The position numbers and the translations under genes were made by a program. Positions 6,277-16,639 of a stretch of DNA of 34,623 bases are shown in pieces. Source of the stretch: Methanocella sp. PtaU1.Bin125 (lineage in GTDB: Archaea > Halobacteriota > Methanocellia > Methanocellales > Methanocellaceae); the NCBI GenBank assembly GCA_002067315.1, contig MVRA01000040.1, forward strand, positions 1 to 34,623. Direction: 5' to 3'. The notes under the pieces were generated by a model. It saw nothing but the letters and a program-made list of their open reading frames with translations, made no database searches and had not been told where the DNA came from. Numbering within the stretch: the stretch's first letter is position 1; every line of letters begins with the position of its first letter.

Positions 6277-6495
6277 GCTGCCAGAGGGCGCAGAGATAGT
6301 ATTGTCGGCGCTACTTTATATATAAAAAGATTGACGCCAAGGGGGCCAGGAGCGCCAAGGATTTTCAGTACAGCGATTTTCAGGCCAGGGCAGTCAAAGT
6401 CTCATGGGACGCCAGGACTCGGTTGTGAAAACGTATTGTTTTCATGTGAAAGCTGGTGAAAATCAGGCCTTGTCAGAGCAATGCGCAGCTTTACA

Positions 6496-6531
6496 GCGCG
6501 CCAGGCTCGCCAAGGACCGCCAAGCTCGCCA
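6496..6531 (+). repeat. Left arm of a 36-bp inverted repeat (GCCAAG type)
   Basis: This arm pairs with 6572-6607, with 30 of 36 positions complementary. It is built of short units containing CGCCAAG, similar in style to the terminal repeats of the GxxExxY cassette at 10.6 and 11.4 kb. Confidence 0.75.
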
Positions 6532-6571
6532 CGTCATATATGGCAAGCGTGAATTCCCCATTATTAAACCT

Positions 6572-6607
6572 TGGCGAACTTGGCGGTACGTGGCGGACTT
6601 GGCGCGC
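6572..6607 (-). repeat. Right arm of the 36-bp inverted repeat
   Basis: It is complementary to 6496-6531 with six mismatches and a 40-bp spacer. No gene lies between the arms. Confidence 0.75.
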
Positions 6608-6825
6608 TTTACTTCTGCGCAATCAGAAACGGAGATTATTTTCATGGAACGCCATGCTTTTTAAATGAATCCTGGCACCGATCTCTGTTATTCTTGGCGT
6701 CCTTGCGCCCTGGCGGCATCTACCCTGGCGTCACTGGCCGCCTTGGCGCCTGTCCAAAAATGAAAAAACCGACGCGCGGCCTGCCCGGCGTCCGCGCGCG
6801 AACGCCCGACGGCCCGGCATAGTTT

Positions 6826-9995: not shown

Positions 9996-10074
9996 CCGGC
10001 ACCGGCATCCCCGCGCCTCTGCTTTATTTATATGAACGTAAAATTATATTTCGGTGTTTGCTTTGCAGGATCAA

Positions 10075-10563
10075 ATGCACAGGGAATATGAGATGAAGCG
10101 GTTCGACCTGCCCGACATGAGCCACCGGGAGATGGACGAGCTGCTGGGGAGCCAGCTTTTATGCCGGATCAGCTTCAACGACCGGCCTTACCCTTACACG
10201 TTACCAATGGAATATTATTACTTCGGCGACACCATGTACTTCCACTTCACCACGACCGGAAAGAAAATGGACCTGATGCGCGCCGACCCGAACGTATGCG
10301 TGGAAGTGGACTGGTCCAACGACGACCTGTCGGACTACAAGAGCGTAATCATCCGGGGACGGCTCGTGGAAGTGATCGACACGGCCGAACGCAACACGAT
10401 GAATTTGGCCATGTCCGGCGCGGTCAAGGACAAGATCGGCATCAAGGCCTACCTGCGCATACCATGGGCAAAGAAAGGCATCGACTACCTGTCCGCGTCC
10501 AACATCCCGCTCACGCTCTACAAGCTCGAAGTCAAAGACATGACCGGCAAAAAAGCGCATTAA
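10075..10563 (+). CDS. Pyridoxamine 5'-phosphate oxidase-like FMN-binding protein
   Basis: This protein of about 162 aa is a split-barrel flavoprotein of the PPOX/Nim-like group. It has the SQLLCRISFNDRPY..PMEY opening, the central YFHFTTTGKKMDLMRADPNVCVEVD segment that lines the flavin site, and the later IIRGRLVEV strand. Such proteins bind FMN or F420 and reduce small molecules; the substrate is unknown. Starts at GTG 10054, ATG 10075 and ATG 10093 are all in frame; 10075 follows GGATC and lies about 30 nt after a TATA-like box (AAATTATATTT, 10040-10050). Its TAA stop falls within the TTAA that begins the downstream GxxExxY cassette. Confidence 0.88.
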   Translation: MHREYEMKRFDLPDMSHREMDELLGSQLLCRISFNDRPYPYTLPMEYYYFGDTMYFHFTTTGKKMDLMRADPNVCVEVDWSNDDLSDYKSVIIRGRLVEVIDTAERNTMNLAMSGAVKDKIGIKAYLRIPWAKKGIDYLSASNIPLTLYKLEVKDMTGKKAH

Positions 10564-10689
10564 GACGCCAGGTGGCCAAGAGAAGACGCCAAGACGCCAC
10601 TGTAGAAACTATGAGGCGCCAAGACGCCAAGTGTGCTTTTTTTAGATCAAGTCGCCAAGTGTCCAAGAAGAGAGGCCAAGACGCTACGT
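10560..10689 (+). repeat. Left terminal inverted repeat of the GxxExxY cassette
   Basis: The arm begins TTAAGACGCCAG, contains several CGCCAAG units and the 29-bp core at 10595-10623, and ends at GCTACGT. The core matches the reverse complement of 11360-11388 at every position. A run of seven T (10637-10643) inside it could serve as an archaeal terminator for the PPOX gene. Confidence 0.9.
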
Positions 10690-10852
10690 GAATTTTTTAT
10701 AAACAAGAATCAAGATGGCCGATAAGCGTTGCTAATACATTAAGTATTATTATAAATCCCGTAACTACATTATTAACTTTTTTACAAATCAATGTAGTAA
10801 AGTTTATGTTTAATCACATTGTATTCAATTAATTGAGAAAAAGGTGTTATAG

Positions 10853-11257
10853 ATGGAAAACAAAGTTGTTTATAAGGAACCGTCTGTAGAGCTTGATAAA
10901 ATTGCTAACCAGATCGTTGATTCAGCATACAAGGTACACATTAAAAAGGGTCCAGGGTTGCTTGAACGAATTTACCGTGATGCTTTAATCATTGAAATGA
11001 GGAAAAGGGGACTGTTAGTCGAAAAGGAAGTGCACGTGCCAGTTTATTATGATGACATATTATTAGAAGGCGATTATGTCCTGGATTTAATTGTTGAAGG
11101 CCAGGTGGTTGTCGAACTAAAAACAGTAGAGCAATTATTACCTATCCACAGGTCGCAGCTCAAGACTTATTTAGATATCAGCGGATGCCATTTGGGATTA
11201 TTGATCAATTTCAATTGTATCCTCATAAAAGATAACATTAAAAGAGTAATCCATTAG
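10853..11257 (+). CDS. GxxExxY family protein, PD-(D/E)XK nuclease superfamily
   Basis: The 134-aa protein carries the family's namesake motif as GLLERIY (within GPGLLERIYRDAL, about residues 34-46). A PD-(D/E)XK-type core follows: D in YVLDLIV, E-L-K in VVVELKTV, and an H-x-x-Q-L-x-x-YL helix. The family is assigned to the nuclease superfamily (PDDEXK_3), but its biological role is not settled to my knowledge. ATG 10853 is preceded by AGGTG eight bases upstream. Codon use is AT-rich, unlike every neighbour, which points to recent transfer. It is the only gene between two long inverted repeats. Confidence 0.9.
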   Translation: MENKVVYKEPSVELDKIANQIVDSAYKVHIKKGPGLLERIYRDALIIEMRKRGLLVEKEVHVPVYYDDILLEGDYVLDLIVEGQVVVELKTVEQLLPIHRSQLKTYLDISGCHLGLLINFNCILIKDNIKRVIH

Positions 11258-11273
11258 CCTTCTTCTTTTTAAT

Positions 11274-11423
11274 ACGTAGCACCTTGCCCCTCATCCTGGA
11301 TCCTTGGCCACTTCTCTTGGACCCTTAGCCCCTTAAATAGAAAAAGTAAAACTTGGCGCCTTGGCGCCTCATAGTTTCTACAGTGGCGCCTTGGACACTT
11401 CTCTTGGACCTCTGGCGACTTAA
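11274..11423 (-). repeat. Right terminal inverted repeat of the GxxExxY cassette
   Basis: Read on the minus strand it begins TTAAGTCGCCAG, shares the 29-bp core (11360-11388) and ends at GCTACGT as the left arm does. It is about 20 bp longer than the left arm because of extra sequence in the inner half. Confidence 0.9.
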
Positions 11424-13309
11424 GCCGCGGGCAGGATGACGACGAACCGTGCCCCTTTGCCCGGATCGCCGGGCACGCGGTCCTCGACCCAGACCTTGCC
11501 GCCGAAGTCGTCGACCAGCGCGCGGACGATGAAGAGCCCCAGCCCTTTTCCGTGGGCCCTGGTATCGCCCCGCTGGAAGCGCATAAAAATCTTGTCCTTC
11601 AGCCAGTTGGGAATGCCCGGGCCGTTGTCCTCGACCATGATGCGCAAGTAGTCAATCCCTCCGGACTTGATCCGGTCGACCCCGATGTCGATGACCACCG
11701 CGGTACCCGGGCGGGCGTGTTTGACGGAGTTGCCGATGAGGTTGGCAAAGATGTCGGTGACCAGCTCGTTGGCCCTGACCAGGCAGTCAGAGGGCGCGTC
11801 TATGTTTATTGTGACGTCGCCTGTCTCAGACGCCTCGTACAACGACTTCAGGTCCCGGAGTATCTTGCAGAGGTCGATAGACGCTATCCTTTCCTCACCG
11901 GGCTTTTCACGCTGGAGCTTGCGGACGTTGTCGATGATGCGGGACATATCTTTCAATGAGTCCAGCGATTTCTGCAGCAGGTCCCGGATGTCCTCGTTCT
12001 CGGCCAGCTCGATGGCCAGCTCGATGTAGCCCATGCCGATCTGGGAGAGGTTCCGGATGTCGTGGCCCATGAGGTCCAGGTAAAGCTCGGCCTGCGCCTT
12101 TGCCTCCTTAAGCTCTTCCTCCGACTGCCTCCGCCGCGTGATGTCCGTGAACATGGCCAGCGACCCGTCGTAATGGCCATCCTCGTCGATGATAGGGGCG
12201 GCACTGACGATGGTCACCAGCTTCGTGCCGTCCTTCCTCACCAGATCGCAGTCGTAGGACTCCCTGATGCCCTGCTTGCGGCGCTCGATCGCGGTCCTCT
12301 GGGCGTCCCGGGATGTCTCGTGGATGAAGTCGTAGCTCAACCTGCCGACGAGCTCCTCGGCACTGTAGCCGAGCATATCGGCCAGCTTTGGATTAATGAA
12401 ACGGATGATCGCCTTCCGGTCGATGATCCAGATGCCTTCCTGAGCCAGCTCCACGATCTGCCTGTACTTGCGCTCGCTTTCCCGCAGCGCCATCTCGGCC
12501 CGGCGGCGCTCATTGACCTCTGCCCACAGCGACTCGTTGACGTGCTGCAGCTCTTCCCGGCTCACACGGACCTCGATCTCGAGCTGGTCCCGCGCCTGGC
12601 TAAGCTCTTCTTCCTGATGCACGTGCCAGGTGACGTCCCTTATCGAGACGAGGTAGGAGGGCCGGCCTTTCCATTCCACCTCGACCATCCGCATCTCGAC
12701 GGCGATGAACTTGCGGAACGCCCGCAGGATGTACATCTCCACTGGCTCTTCCAGGACGATGGGGAACCCGAACAGCTTGCCGAGCATGTCCGTCTCGGCC
12801 ATATTGAACAGCGACTCGGCCGCCGGGTTCACGAACTGGATGTAGCCGTCCCGGTCCAGGACGACCATGGCGTCCGCGTTGCGCGTGACAATCGCCCTCA
12901 GGTCCTTGACGGTACGCTTCAAAGACAGCTCCGCCCGCCGACGGCGGATGATCTCCTCGATCAGCCCCCGCAGCTCCAGGAAAGCGGCCCGGGACTCGCC
13001 GTCCAGGCGCAGGAAGAACTCGGCCCCCGATTTGATCGTTTCGATGATAACCCTTTCGTCCGGGTGGCGGCCGTAAAAGATGACCGGCACCTCGATGTCG
13101 CTGCACTGCAGCGTGCTCATCAGGGGATTATCGCCGATCTGCAGCGCATAGTTGGCCACAATGATGTCTATGTTACCCTTCTCAAGGTAACTTAAGGCCT
13201 TATCGACAGACGGAGCCGATACAATAGTCATGCTCGTGTCCTGCGAGAGAAATTTCTCTCCCTCCCGGAGGATGGACGGATCGTTATCGATGATCAGGAT
13301 TATCGTCAT
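11420..13309 (-). CDS. PAS histidine kinase with N-terminal degenerate receiver, third gene of the kai operon
   Basis: This 629-aa protein reads in order: receiver-like domain (about 1-115), PAS (about 135-235), coiled coil, second PAS (about 285-395), HisKA with H416 in LMGHDIRN, and an HATPase with N-box (NLIGNSVKH), G1 (VEDNGPGIP) and G2 (GKGLGLFIV). In the receiver the acidic pair is kept (D8, D10), but the phospho-accepting Asp is Asn (IIVANYAL, N53) and the conserved Lys is lost, so it should bind rather than accept phosphate. It is soluble, with no membrane segment. ATG 13309 follows GGTG and lies 27 bp after kaiB, so the kinase is probably the output partner of KaiBC. Its TAA stop coincides with the cassette's TTAA. 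Confidence 0.93.
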   Translation of the reverse strand: MTIILIIDNDPSILREGEKFLSQDTSMTIVSAPSVDKALSYLEKGNIDIIVANYALQIGDNPLMSTLQCSDIEVPVIFYGRHPDERVIIETIKSGAEFFLRLDGESRAAFLELRGLIEEIIRRRRAELSLKRTVKDLRAIVTRNADAMVVLDRDGYIQFVNPAAESLFNMAETDMLGKLFGFPIVLEEPVEMYILRAFRKFIAVEMRMVEVEWKGRPSYLVSIRDVTWHVHQEEELSQARDQLEIEVRVSREELQHVNESLWAEVNERRRAEMALRESERKYRQIVELAQEGIWIIDRKAIIRFINPKLADMLGYSAEELVGRLSYDFIHETSRDAQRTAIERRKQGIRESYDCDLVRKDGTKLVTIVSAAPIIDEDGHYDGSLAMFTDITRRRQSEEELKEAKAQAELYLDLMGHDIRNLSQIGMGYIELAIELAENEDIRDLLQKSLDSLKDMSRIIDNVRKLQREKPGEERIASIDLCKILRDLKSLYEASETGDVTINIDAPSDCLVRANELVTDIFANLIGNSVKHARPGTAVVIDIGVDRIKSGGIDYLRIMVEDNGPGIPNWLKDKIFMRFQRGDTRAHGKGLGLFIVRALVDDFGGKVWVEDRVPGDPGKGARFVVILPAA

Positions 13310-13335
13310 TCGGCACCGTATGGTTTTCAACAGGG

Positions 13336-13644
13336 CTATATTTTCTGCTTGATGTCCAGCCCGACGAGCACCTTTTCCGAGACAGACATGTCCCCGATCA
13401 GCTTTTTCAGCGGCTCGGGGAGCTTGCGGATGATGGTCGGCACTGCGAAAATCTGGTCCTGGGCGGCGAGCTGGGGGTGCTTCACGAGATCGATGACCTC
13501 GATCGCGTACCTGCCCTTCAGGTGTTCCTCGCAGACCTTCTTCAGGTTCTCGACGGCCTTGCGCGACTTATCGGTCTCGCCTGCGACGTAGATTCGCAGC
13601 TGCCATTCCTTCGGCGCTTTCGCAGCGCTTTTTACTCCCGGCAT
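13336..13644 (-). CDS. kaiB: KaiB-like clock protein
   Basis: The 102-aa protein is a full-length KaiB: the [19 protein letters not shown] thioredoxin-like opening, the central [24 protein letters not shown] and the C-terminal LIGDMS. In cyanobacteria KaiB changes fold, binds phosphorylated KaiC and recruits output kinases. The family residues around the cis-proline (AVPTII) are kept. I chose ATG 13644, which has GAGGAG eight bases upstream, over the GTG nine bases earlier. It starts one base after the kaiC stop codon, indicating translational coupling. Confidence 0.95.
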
Positions 13645-13645
13645 A

Positions 13646-15418
13646 TCAGTCACTCCTCGCCTTATTATTCCGGTCCGCTTTTCGCTCCCGGGCCATGACC
13701 GAGCGGTCCAGGTTAATGATCTCGAGGTCCTGTTCCGCCTGCTCGATGCCCTTCACGAGCGCGGCTTCTTCGGCATGGAACGCGGTCTCGATAGCGGTCT
13801 GCCGCGCCTCGAACTCGCGCCGCTTCTCCGCCAGAATCGTCCTCTTGTGTTCGATATCTCGCTGTATCTCCGTAATCTGCGCCTTATCCTTCGCTTCCTG
13901 TACCAACCTGGCGCTGCCCATGAGCACGCCGGCCGGACCGACATACGGCGGGGCCAGGTCGATGCCCCGGCCGGTGAACCGGAACTCCCTGAGCTGGTTC
14001 GAGTGCGGCATGCCGCGGGACTTGATGACGGTCAGGCTGCGGTTGCGCTCGCCGTTGAACTCGACGTTGCGCAACATAATCCACGTGTCAATGATGGAAG
14101 AGACGAACACTTCCGGCTGCCTCGCCCGGATATCGCCCGTGATAAGGTCGGTCGAGATGCAGGTGATCTCTCTCGACTTCATCAGGTCCTGCAGCCTCAC
14201 CAGCATCGACTTGACTTCCTTGCTTCCTCCGATGGCCGTAAAGTCCGATATCGGGTCCATCACGATGTTTTGGGGCTGGAATCTCCTGATATGGTCTTCG
14301 ATCATCACGATATGCATTTCCAGGCCATACAATGCCGGGCGGGTCACGTAGAAATGGAGCAGGCCATTTTTCACCCACTGCCCAAGGTCGATGCCGATTG
14401 AGCGCATGTTCCGGACAATCTGGTCTTCTGTCTCTTCCATGGCGATGTACAGGCATTTCTCCCCCCTCCGGCAGGCGGCGTCCACGAAAGCCGCGGCAAA
14501 GCTCGTCTTTCCGGTCCCGGCCGTGCCCGTATACAATATGGCGCTGCCCCGGTAGAAGCCCTTACCGTCCAGCATCGTATCCAGCTTCGGGATGCCGGTC
14601 GATATCCGGTCTCTCGACAGCGCGTAATCGGTCCTGATCGAGGTGATCGGGAAGATGACGATGCCCTCACGGCCGATGAGGAACGGGTACTCGTCCATGC
14701 CGTGCGTGCTGCCGCGGTACTTGGCGATGCGCAGCCGGCGGGTGCTGATCTGCTCCGTCACCCGGCTGTCCAGGATGATGACGCAGTCCGCGATGTACTC
14801 CTCGAGGCCGTACCGGGTCAGCGTGGTATCGCCCTTCTCGCCGGTGACGACTGCGGTAATGCCCCGCTCCTTCAGCCAGCGGAACAGGCGCAACAGCTCC
14901 GAGCGGAGCAGCGCGTGATTGGTCAGGCCGGAGAACAGTACCTCTATAGTGTCGAGCGCCACGCGCTTCGCGCCGATGGAGTCGATCGCGTAGCCGAGGC
15001 GGATGAATAGCGCCTCCAGGTCGTACTCGCCGGTCTCCATGATCAGGCTGCGGTCCAGGAACACGTGATCGATGATAATCTTCTTCTCTTCCATCAGCTT
15101 CTCGAGGTTGAAGCCGACAGAGGCGAAGTTTTGCTTGAGGTCGTTGACGTTCTCCTCGAAGGTCAGATAGACGCCCGGCTCGCCGAACTCCACGGCACCG
15201 CGGACGACGAACTCCATGGCGAACATGGTCTTGCCGCTGCCGGCGCCCCCGGCCACCAGCGTCGGCCGGCCTCTCGGCAGGCCGCCGTAGGTAATGTCTT
15301 CGAACCCCTTGATGCCGGTCGGGGCTTTCTCGAGCGCCTTCAGCTTTTTACCCCCGGCATCGTTTTTACCCTTATCACGTCCGGTTCCACGCTTGCTCGT
15401 CGGCACAGTTAACACCAT
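13646..15418 (-). CDS. kaiC: KaiC, double-domain clock/RecA-like ATPase
   Basis: The 590-aa protein has two KaiC domains. CI has Walker A GGAGSGKT (57-64) and the catalytic pair E88-E89. CII has GTAGTGKT (298-305) and E328-E329. At the site matching cyanobacterial S431/T432 it has S440-S441 (VSSIIDT), so autophosphorylation is plausible. After the CII core (about 500) it carries a coiled-coil tail of about 80 charged residues in place of the short cyanobacterial A-loop tail. No kaiA is present. It is the first gene of kaiC-kaiB-kinase on the minus strand, with a TATA-like box about 45-55 nt upstream. The ATG at 15418 has no ribosome site; a GTG follows immediately. Confidence 0.96.
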
Positions 15419-16504: not shown

Positions 16505-16551
16505 GCGCGGTTAAAGGCCGCAAAGAACGCAGAGGAGCGCAGAGACCGCAG
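16505..16551 (+). repeat. Left arm of a 47-bp orphan inverted repeat (GCAGAG type)
   Basis: The arm starts GCGCGGTTAAAGGCCGCA and is made of CGCAGAG-like units. It pairs with 16593-16639 with three mismatches in 47. TTAA occurs at 16511-16514. Confidence 0.95.
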
Positions 16552-16592
16552 TTTCTTTTATGTTATACACGAAGCCCTATCTATAAGGGAAG

Positions 16593-16639
16593 CTGCGGCC
16601 TCTGCGCTCCTCTGCGGTCTCTGCGGCCTTTAACCGCGC
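16593..16639 (-). repeat. Right arm of the 47-bp orphan inverted repeat
   Basis: It mirrors 16505-16551 across a 41-bp spacer that holds no gene, with TTAA at 16630-16633. Transcribed, it would form a very stable hairpin, so it could also act as the 3' end of the aldolase message. It may be a miniature, gene-less relative of the GxxExxY cassette. Confidence 0.95.

Follow-up and report, generated by a model that had tools for sequence, protein, structure and literature searches.

Architecture of the locus

The window (the whole stretch of DNA analyzed, 34,623 nucleotides from Methanocella sp. PtaU1.Bin125) carries a palindromic element in which a single open reading frame (ORF) is enclosed by two inverted arms and which fits between two convergent genes. 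The element, its neighbors, and two further palindromes in the window are listed below.

6482..6621: palindrome without a gene, apart from the cassette, made of CGCCAAG words and lacking the family core
10054..10563, + strand: PPOX-like (pyridoxamine-phosphate-oxidase-like) gene, the upstream neighbor, with a stop codon that overlaps the end of the element
10562..11421: complete palindromic element with its GxxExxY gene, ends set by comparison with 35 gene-less copies
10562..10700, + strand: left arm, with CCAAG/CGCCAAG words, variable triplets, the conserved core, and a T-tract
10595..10623, + strand: 29-nt core, left copy (79 core copies genome-wide)
10853..11257, + strand: GxxExxY gene for a predicted PD-(D/E)XK protein of 134 aa, with D78, E88-x-K90, Q102, and Y106 intact
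11283..11421, − strand: right arm, inverted
11360..11388, − strand: 29-nt core, right copy
11420..13330, − strand: response regulator/PAS histidine kinase gene, the convergent downstream neighbor, likewise with a stop codon that overlaps the end of the element
16505..16639: palindrome without a gene, apart from the cassette, made of CGCAAAG/CGCAGAG words

The ends of the element read AAG...CTT, the same as in the gene-less copies. Repeat alignment within the window places the inverted arms at 10555–10680 and 11303–11428, where 126 nt are 79% complementary, and the two cores (10595–10623 and 11360–11388) match each other perfectly, exactly where the initial annotation had put them. The hairpin potential of the element is very strong (z −18). 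The GC content falls from approximately 0.59 to 0.34 across the cassette, in which the GxxExxY ORF is the sole gene evident; neither a DDE nor any other known transposase was found within the element. The cassette had also been described as bounded by TTAA, which does not hold: each of these motifs comes from the stop codon of one of the convergent neighbors, and the gene-less copies lack it, so TTAA is no feature of the element and is ruled out as its target site. An Rfam search of the window returned no rRNA and no other match.

The two separate palindromes, at 6482–6621 and 16505–16639, belong to families other than that of the cassette. Adjoining the kinase gene that borders the cassette are, on the minus strand, KaiB (13336–13653) and a double-domain KaiC (13646–15418), and the minus-strand genes at 13336–15418 are an archaeal Kai-type cluster.

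The GxxExxY protein

The product of the gene matches the profiles PF13366 (PDDEXK_3; E 8e-38, 130 bits against a cut-off of 22) and TIGR04256 (GxxExxY; E 1e-38, 132 bits against a cut-off of 35), and its GxxExxY motif reads GPGLLERIY. Judged by this motif and by scores above the curated cut-offs, it is a member of the GxxExxY family, in agreement with the earlier reading of a single AT-rich gene of this type. D78 and E88-x-K90 are conserved across 50 homologs; Q102 and Y106 are conserved residues as well. The predicted structure (pLDDT 91.5) shows a PD-(D/E)XK fold; its best Foldseek matches, 3syy, 4ic1, and 1avq (LHK-Exo, Cas4 SSO0001, and lambda exonuclease), are weak (E ~0.015–0.03), and a sequence search of the PDB gave no match. 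With a D...(D/E)xK site in the characteristic fold of the model, the protein can be placed in the PD-(D/E)XK superfamily, the structural matches being weak. It has the fold and the ExK and QxxxY residues in common with the lambda exonuclease/Cas4 branch, but it is only 134 aa long and is found in neither a phage recombination nor a CRISPR setting.

No role is assigned to GxxExxY proteins in the open-access literature searched, subscription journals lying outside that search. The gene copies within genomes are under purifying selection (dN/dS 0.05–0.23). No match to the gene was found in 50,697 phages or in viral contigs, and there were only 8 matches in 72,556 plasmids; spread by phages or plasmids was rejected on these counts.

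Word arrays around GxxExxY genes

The initial annotation proposed that GxxExxY genes elsewhere be examined for similar repeats, and matching inverted repeats do flank them in general. In four Methanocellaceae genomes, inverted repeats surround 14 of 16 tested GxxExxY genes as opposed to 0 of 26 other genes. The figure is lower in the remaining Halobacteriota, where a long inverted repeat reaches the same score at only 6 of 20 GxxExxY loci, and most of the rest carry short word arrays. Of 80 GxxExxY loci drawn from many bacterial phyla, 73 have enough flanking sequence, and 36 of these show an inverted repeat scoring 40 bits or more, compared with 1 of 244 control positions of the same size.

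The arms are built from a heptamer, CRCNRA(G/T/A), for example, CACAGAG, CACAAAG, CACTAAG, CGCCAAG, or CGCAGAT, which is repeated in tandem, mostly with a spacing of 1–3 nt, and is oriented toward the gene from both sides. The expected orientation is found on the left at 65 and on the right at 61 of 79 loci, the opposite one at 11 and 10 of 79, respectively, against a background for the stricter word CRCNRAG of 30 in 3440 windows (0.9%). Among control words, permuted ones occur at 0–1 and plainly reversed ones at 10–11 of 72 loci. The two arms of one locus share words (cosine 0.66, against 0.23 for arms of different loci; P ≤ 5e-4), and the word type tracks protein similarity (Mantel r 0.21–0.27, P = 0.0005), a signal that may be due in part to host relatedness. 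The word CRCNRA(G/T/A) goes with the GxxExxY family across Bacteria and Archaea.

The association extends to whole genomes. Of 296 Halobacteriota genomes, 33 are carriers; arrays are enriched in 7 of these and in 4 of the 263 non-carriers (P = 2.8e-5), enrichment meaning at least 15 above control, a cut chosen after the table had been seen; one genome (G003) was left out of the enriched set because its reversed control pattern is itself frequent. Many carriers show no enrichment under the single pattern applied, to which arrays of other words are invisible. Three of the four enriched non-carriers (G097, G122, and G258) come from a single genus that also includes carriers; they have many arrays and no GxxExxY gene. 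In 35 bacterial carrier genomes, a strict three-word pattern gave 458 occurrences against 4 for the control and was present in 24 of the 35.

A repeat family in the host genome

The core of the cassette belongs to a genome-wide repeat family, a point missed in the first reading of this DNA. The host genome contains 79 copies with at most 3 mismatches (42 forward, 37 reverse; none for the reversed-pattern control), corresponding to about 42 elements. The core occurs nearly always in gene-less inverted pairs of ~230–350 bp, and the copies fetched have a constant layout, a forward core followed ~145–330 bp on by a reverse core with no gene between them. The window cassette, the only gene-bearing member found of its family, is the same element with the short loop replaced by the GxxExxY gene. 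Gene-less copies end in AAGnnGCC...GGCnnCTT and have a T-tract in each arm. Many of them fit exactly between convergent stop codons, where they may act as terminators. The host has a second GxxExxY gene, on another contig (C175); the repeats around it use another word, CGCGACG, and are likewise present elsewhere in the genome.

A comparison of 72 arms shows almost no variation in the words (CCAAG and the core), and the triplets intervening between them are near random; even in pairs of copies with loops 82–95% alike, the triplets remain near background identity. Variable arm positions are 0.345 alike within an element and 0.339 between elements, and hairpin complementarity was accordingly rejected as the selected feature. 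Across the loci compared (L041–L080), the triplets between the invariant words change faster than the loop, even among copies with nearly identical loops. An insertion-sequence-like element seems to interrupt one palindrome of this family (L045 and L071), at a point where the contig also breaks. A target-site duplication of 3–9 nt was found in 0 of 36 copies, and matches of 2 nt in 3 of 36.

Evidence of movement

Movement of whole units is most apparent in a closed genome (G002), where two loci (L104 and L106) are 98.6% identical over 643 bp, comprising repeat, gene, and repeat, in unrelated flanks; the identity starts at the left arm and stops ~15 bp past the right arm. Two further multicopy sets, and more from other archaea, are present across G002, G003, G127, and G254. 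Two archaeal genomes of family f6 (G176 and G196) contain at least 11 copies of a ~300-bp element in which CGCAGAT arms surround the first part of a GxxExxY gene. Since the arms enclose only this part, these gene-remnant elements are internal deletion derivatives, similar to miniature inverted-repeat transposable elements (MITEs).

Empty sites, which the initial annotation had suggested looking for, were found for gene-less copies of the family. In a genome of the same genus (G001), an orthologous site consists of 47 nt between convergent genes (orthologs 80% and 75% identical), and its host counterpart holds a gene-less element; a second site, of 90 nt, is likewise free of the element, its orthology being weaker. 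At five other orthologous junctions, the palindromes in G001 belong to different families, and two of them match arms that surround GxxExxY genes of G001 itself, so that the gene-less palindromes of a genome can be traced to its own GxxExxY genes. For the window cassette itself, a PPOX ortholog without the cassette is present in the same genus, but its downstream neighbor differs, and it therefore provides no clean empty site. Some elements occupy the same locus in related species, indicating that movement is not constant. GxxExxY elements are mobile units accompanied by gene-less derivatives; the earlier suggestion of a minimal mobile element is well supported by flanking repeats, empty sites, multicopy units, and deletion derivatives. 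The element may also be selfish, and the nuclease and repeats may suffice for its spread, as the initial annotation proposed, but the position of many gene-less copies between convergent genes and the strong conservation of their words leave room for a host function.

In four Planctomycetota loci (L113, L115, L117, and L131), a GxxExxY element is located at apparently the same groEL–dnaJ junction, gene names having been assigned by eye, and the words differ between species. At one locus of G001 (L097), a divergent GxxExxY gene without arms lies beside apparent siroheme/heme-type genes and is possibly a domesticated copy.

Four-helix-bundle genes and other candidate movers

The same arrangement, with inverted short-word arrays on either side, is seen around genes of another family, the four-helix-bundle proteins (TIGR02436), mostly from f6 archaea. 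The array words at these loci (L215–L244) include TTTAGCGG, GACTAGCC, GGGCTAAG, GATACAGG, and GAATTACG. Arrays of CRCNRA(G/T/A) are found on the two sides of 1 of 21 and 0 of 21 four-helix-bundle loci, as opposed to 7 of 12 and 7 of 12 GxxExxY loci from largely the same archaeal family, which suggests to us that each of the two protein families has a word type of its own. Given the same architecture around four-helix-bundle genes, the layout does not require a nuclease, which leaves room for the idea that the enclosed genes are passengers.

The screen for other movers covered two enzyme classes, reverse transcriptase (RVT_1) and Y1 transposase (Y1_Tnp). Neither was found in the single-contig carriers G001, G002, G150, G204, and G254, and RVT_1 was not found in 11 of 13 carrier genomes, complete ones included. 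Being absent from complete carriers, both were rejected as movers.

A proposed nuclease-mobilized palindrome and its alternatives

The cassette is probably a minimal mobile palindromic element in its autonomous form, consisting of an inverted array, a GxxExxY gene, and a second inverted array, and mobilized by the nuclease it encodes. The nuclease would recognize the arm words, both in its own element and in gene-less copies, probably while the palindrome is in an extruded or single-stranded state, and would cut or trim there. Host replication or repair may then copy the element, without target duplication, to new intergenic positions, many of them flanked by convergent genes. Copies that have lost the gene would persist as MITE-like palindromes that the nuclease could still mobilize, in the way proposed for RAYTs and REPINs. 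The nuclease as the mover, the form of its substrate, the copying mechanism, and the insertion preference are all inferred, and another enzyme could act in trans.

If so, a different enzyme or a host process would move word-array palindromes, and the GxxExxY and four-helix-bundle genes would be small cargo. This we consider unlikely, albeit worth keeping in mind: it draws on the four-helix-bundle genes within the same architecture, on the arrays without a gene in G097, G122, and G258, and on a mover screen limited to two classes, but the word is specific to GxxExxY across domains and differs at four-helix-bundle loci from largely the same archaeal family, the unit holds no other gene, complete carriers lack both enzymes screened for, and the gene copies are under purifying selection. 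Somewhat more doubtful is a domesticated system, in which nuclease and palindromes work for the host, with functions such as bidirectional termination or palindrome processing between convergent genes, and movement is uncommon or lies in the past. The near-identical multicopy units and the gene-remnant MITEs, which denote recent movement, speak against it, as do the two sites that are element-free in the relative, despite the many gene-less copies abutting convergent stop codons, the invariant words with near-random spacer triplets, the T-tract in each arm, and the orthologous junctions that hold palindromes, of differing families, in both species.

The remaining two explanations carry very little weight. 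An arm-folded transcript copied by a reverse transcriptase, or kinship with 23S rRNA intervening sequences, would fit the very strong hairpin potential, the variable triplets, which resemble error-prone copying, and the four-helix-bundle S23 ORF in the Coxiella rRNA intervening sequence (PMC4990558); yet RVT_1 is absent from the five single-contig element carriers, and the variable positions of the two arms are complementary no more than by chance, making an RNA-based route highly improbable. Least credible is an ordinary, vertically inherited gene that came to lie between repeats by chance, to which one may relate the elements that related species have in place at some loci and the armless gene of G001, and which is refuted by the association, copy-number, and boundary results.

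Extending the preferred reading, nuclease-driven mobility, beyond this locus, one may envisage a domain-spanning class of mobile DNA in which one PD-(D/E)XK nuclease spreads its own element and large populations of gene-less palindromes via the arm word, with four-helix-bundle elements as a second class using other words, a proposal on which we are evenly divided. It would give the widespread GxxExxY proteins a concrete, testable function, account for a common type of short-word repeat in prokaryotic genomes, and provide a minimal system of ~640 bp and one gene for DNA mobility without a classical transposase.

Comparison with known systems

Among known mobile elements, those with inverted ends are an obvious reference. 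In insertion sequences (ISs) and their MITEs, an autonomous element bounded by inverted ends amplifies within the genome alongside non-autonomous copies that arose by internal deletion (PMC10969869). GxxExxY elements likewise have inverted ends and internally deleted copies, but they differ from ISs in being without a DDE transposase, in showing no target-site duplication in 36 copies, and in having ends that are imperfect word arrays instead of a fixed terminal repeat. Intervening sequences of 23S rRNA have complementary arms. That of Coxiella is short, contains a single small S23/four-helix-bundle ORF, and has been described as selfish (PMC4990558), whereas GxxExxY elements encode a different protein family, lie outside rRNA, and have far more widely dispersed gene-less copies. 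Retro-elements and DGRs call for a host reverse transcriptase, which 11 of the 13 carrier genomes lack.

The closest likeness is to the RAYT (TnpA-REP)/REPIN system, in which a small nuclease gene is flanked by palindromic repeats that occur genome-wide as inverted doublets, mostly intergenic, and in which the RAYT enzyme and the REPIN repeat co-vary (PMC3116915, PMC8266576). The GxxExxY gene, too, encodes a putative nuclease and is flanked by repeats dispersed as inverted doublets. In contrast, RAYTs are HUH/Y1 enzymes (PF01797), and GxxExxY proteins are of the predicted PD-(D/E)XK type (PF13366); the GxxExxY palindromes are longer than REPINs and are inverted arrays of 7–8-nt words, and, unlike in RAYTs, the gene-bearing unit is itself multicopy in several genomes. 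GxxExxY elements have no HUH nuclease, no target duplication, and no DDE transposase, and for this reason are members of neither the RAYT/REPIN nor the IS/MITE group. Judged from the open-access literature, they are widespread and apparently undescribed minimal mobile palindromes, a counterpart of RAYT/REPIN whose putative nuclease is enzymatically unrelated.
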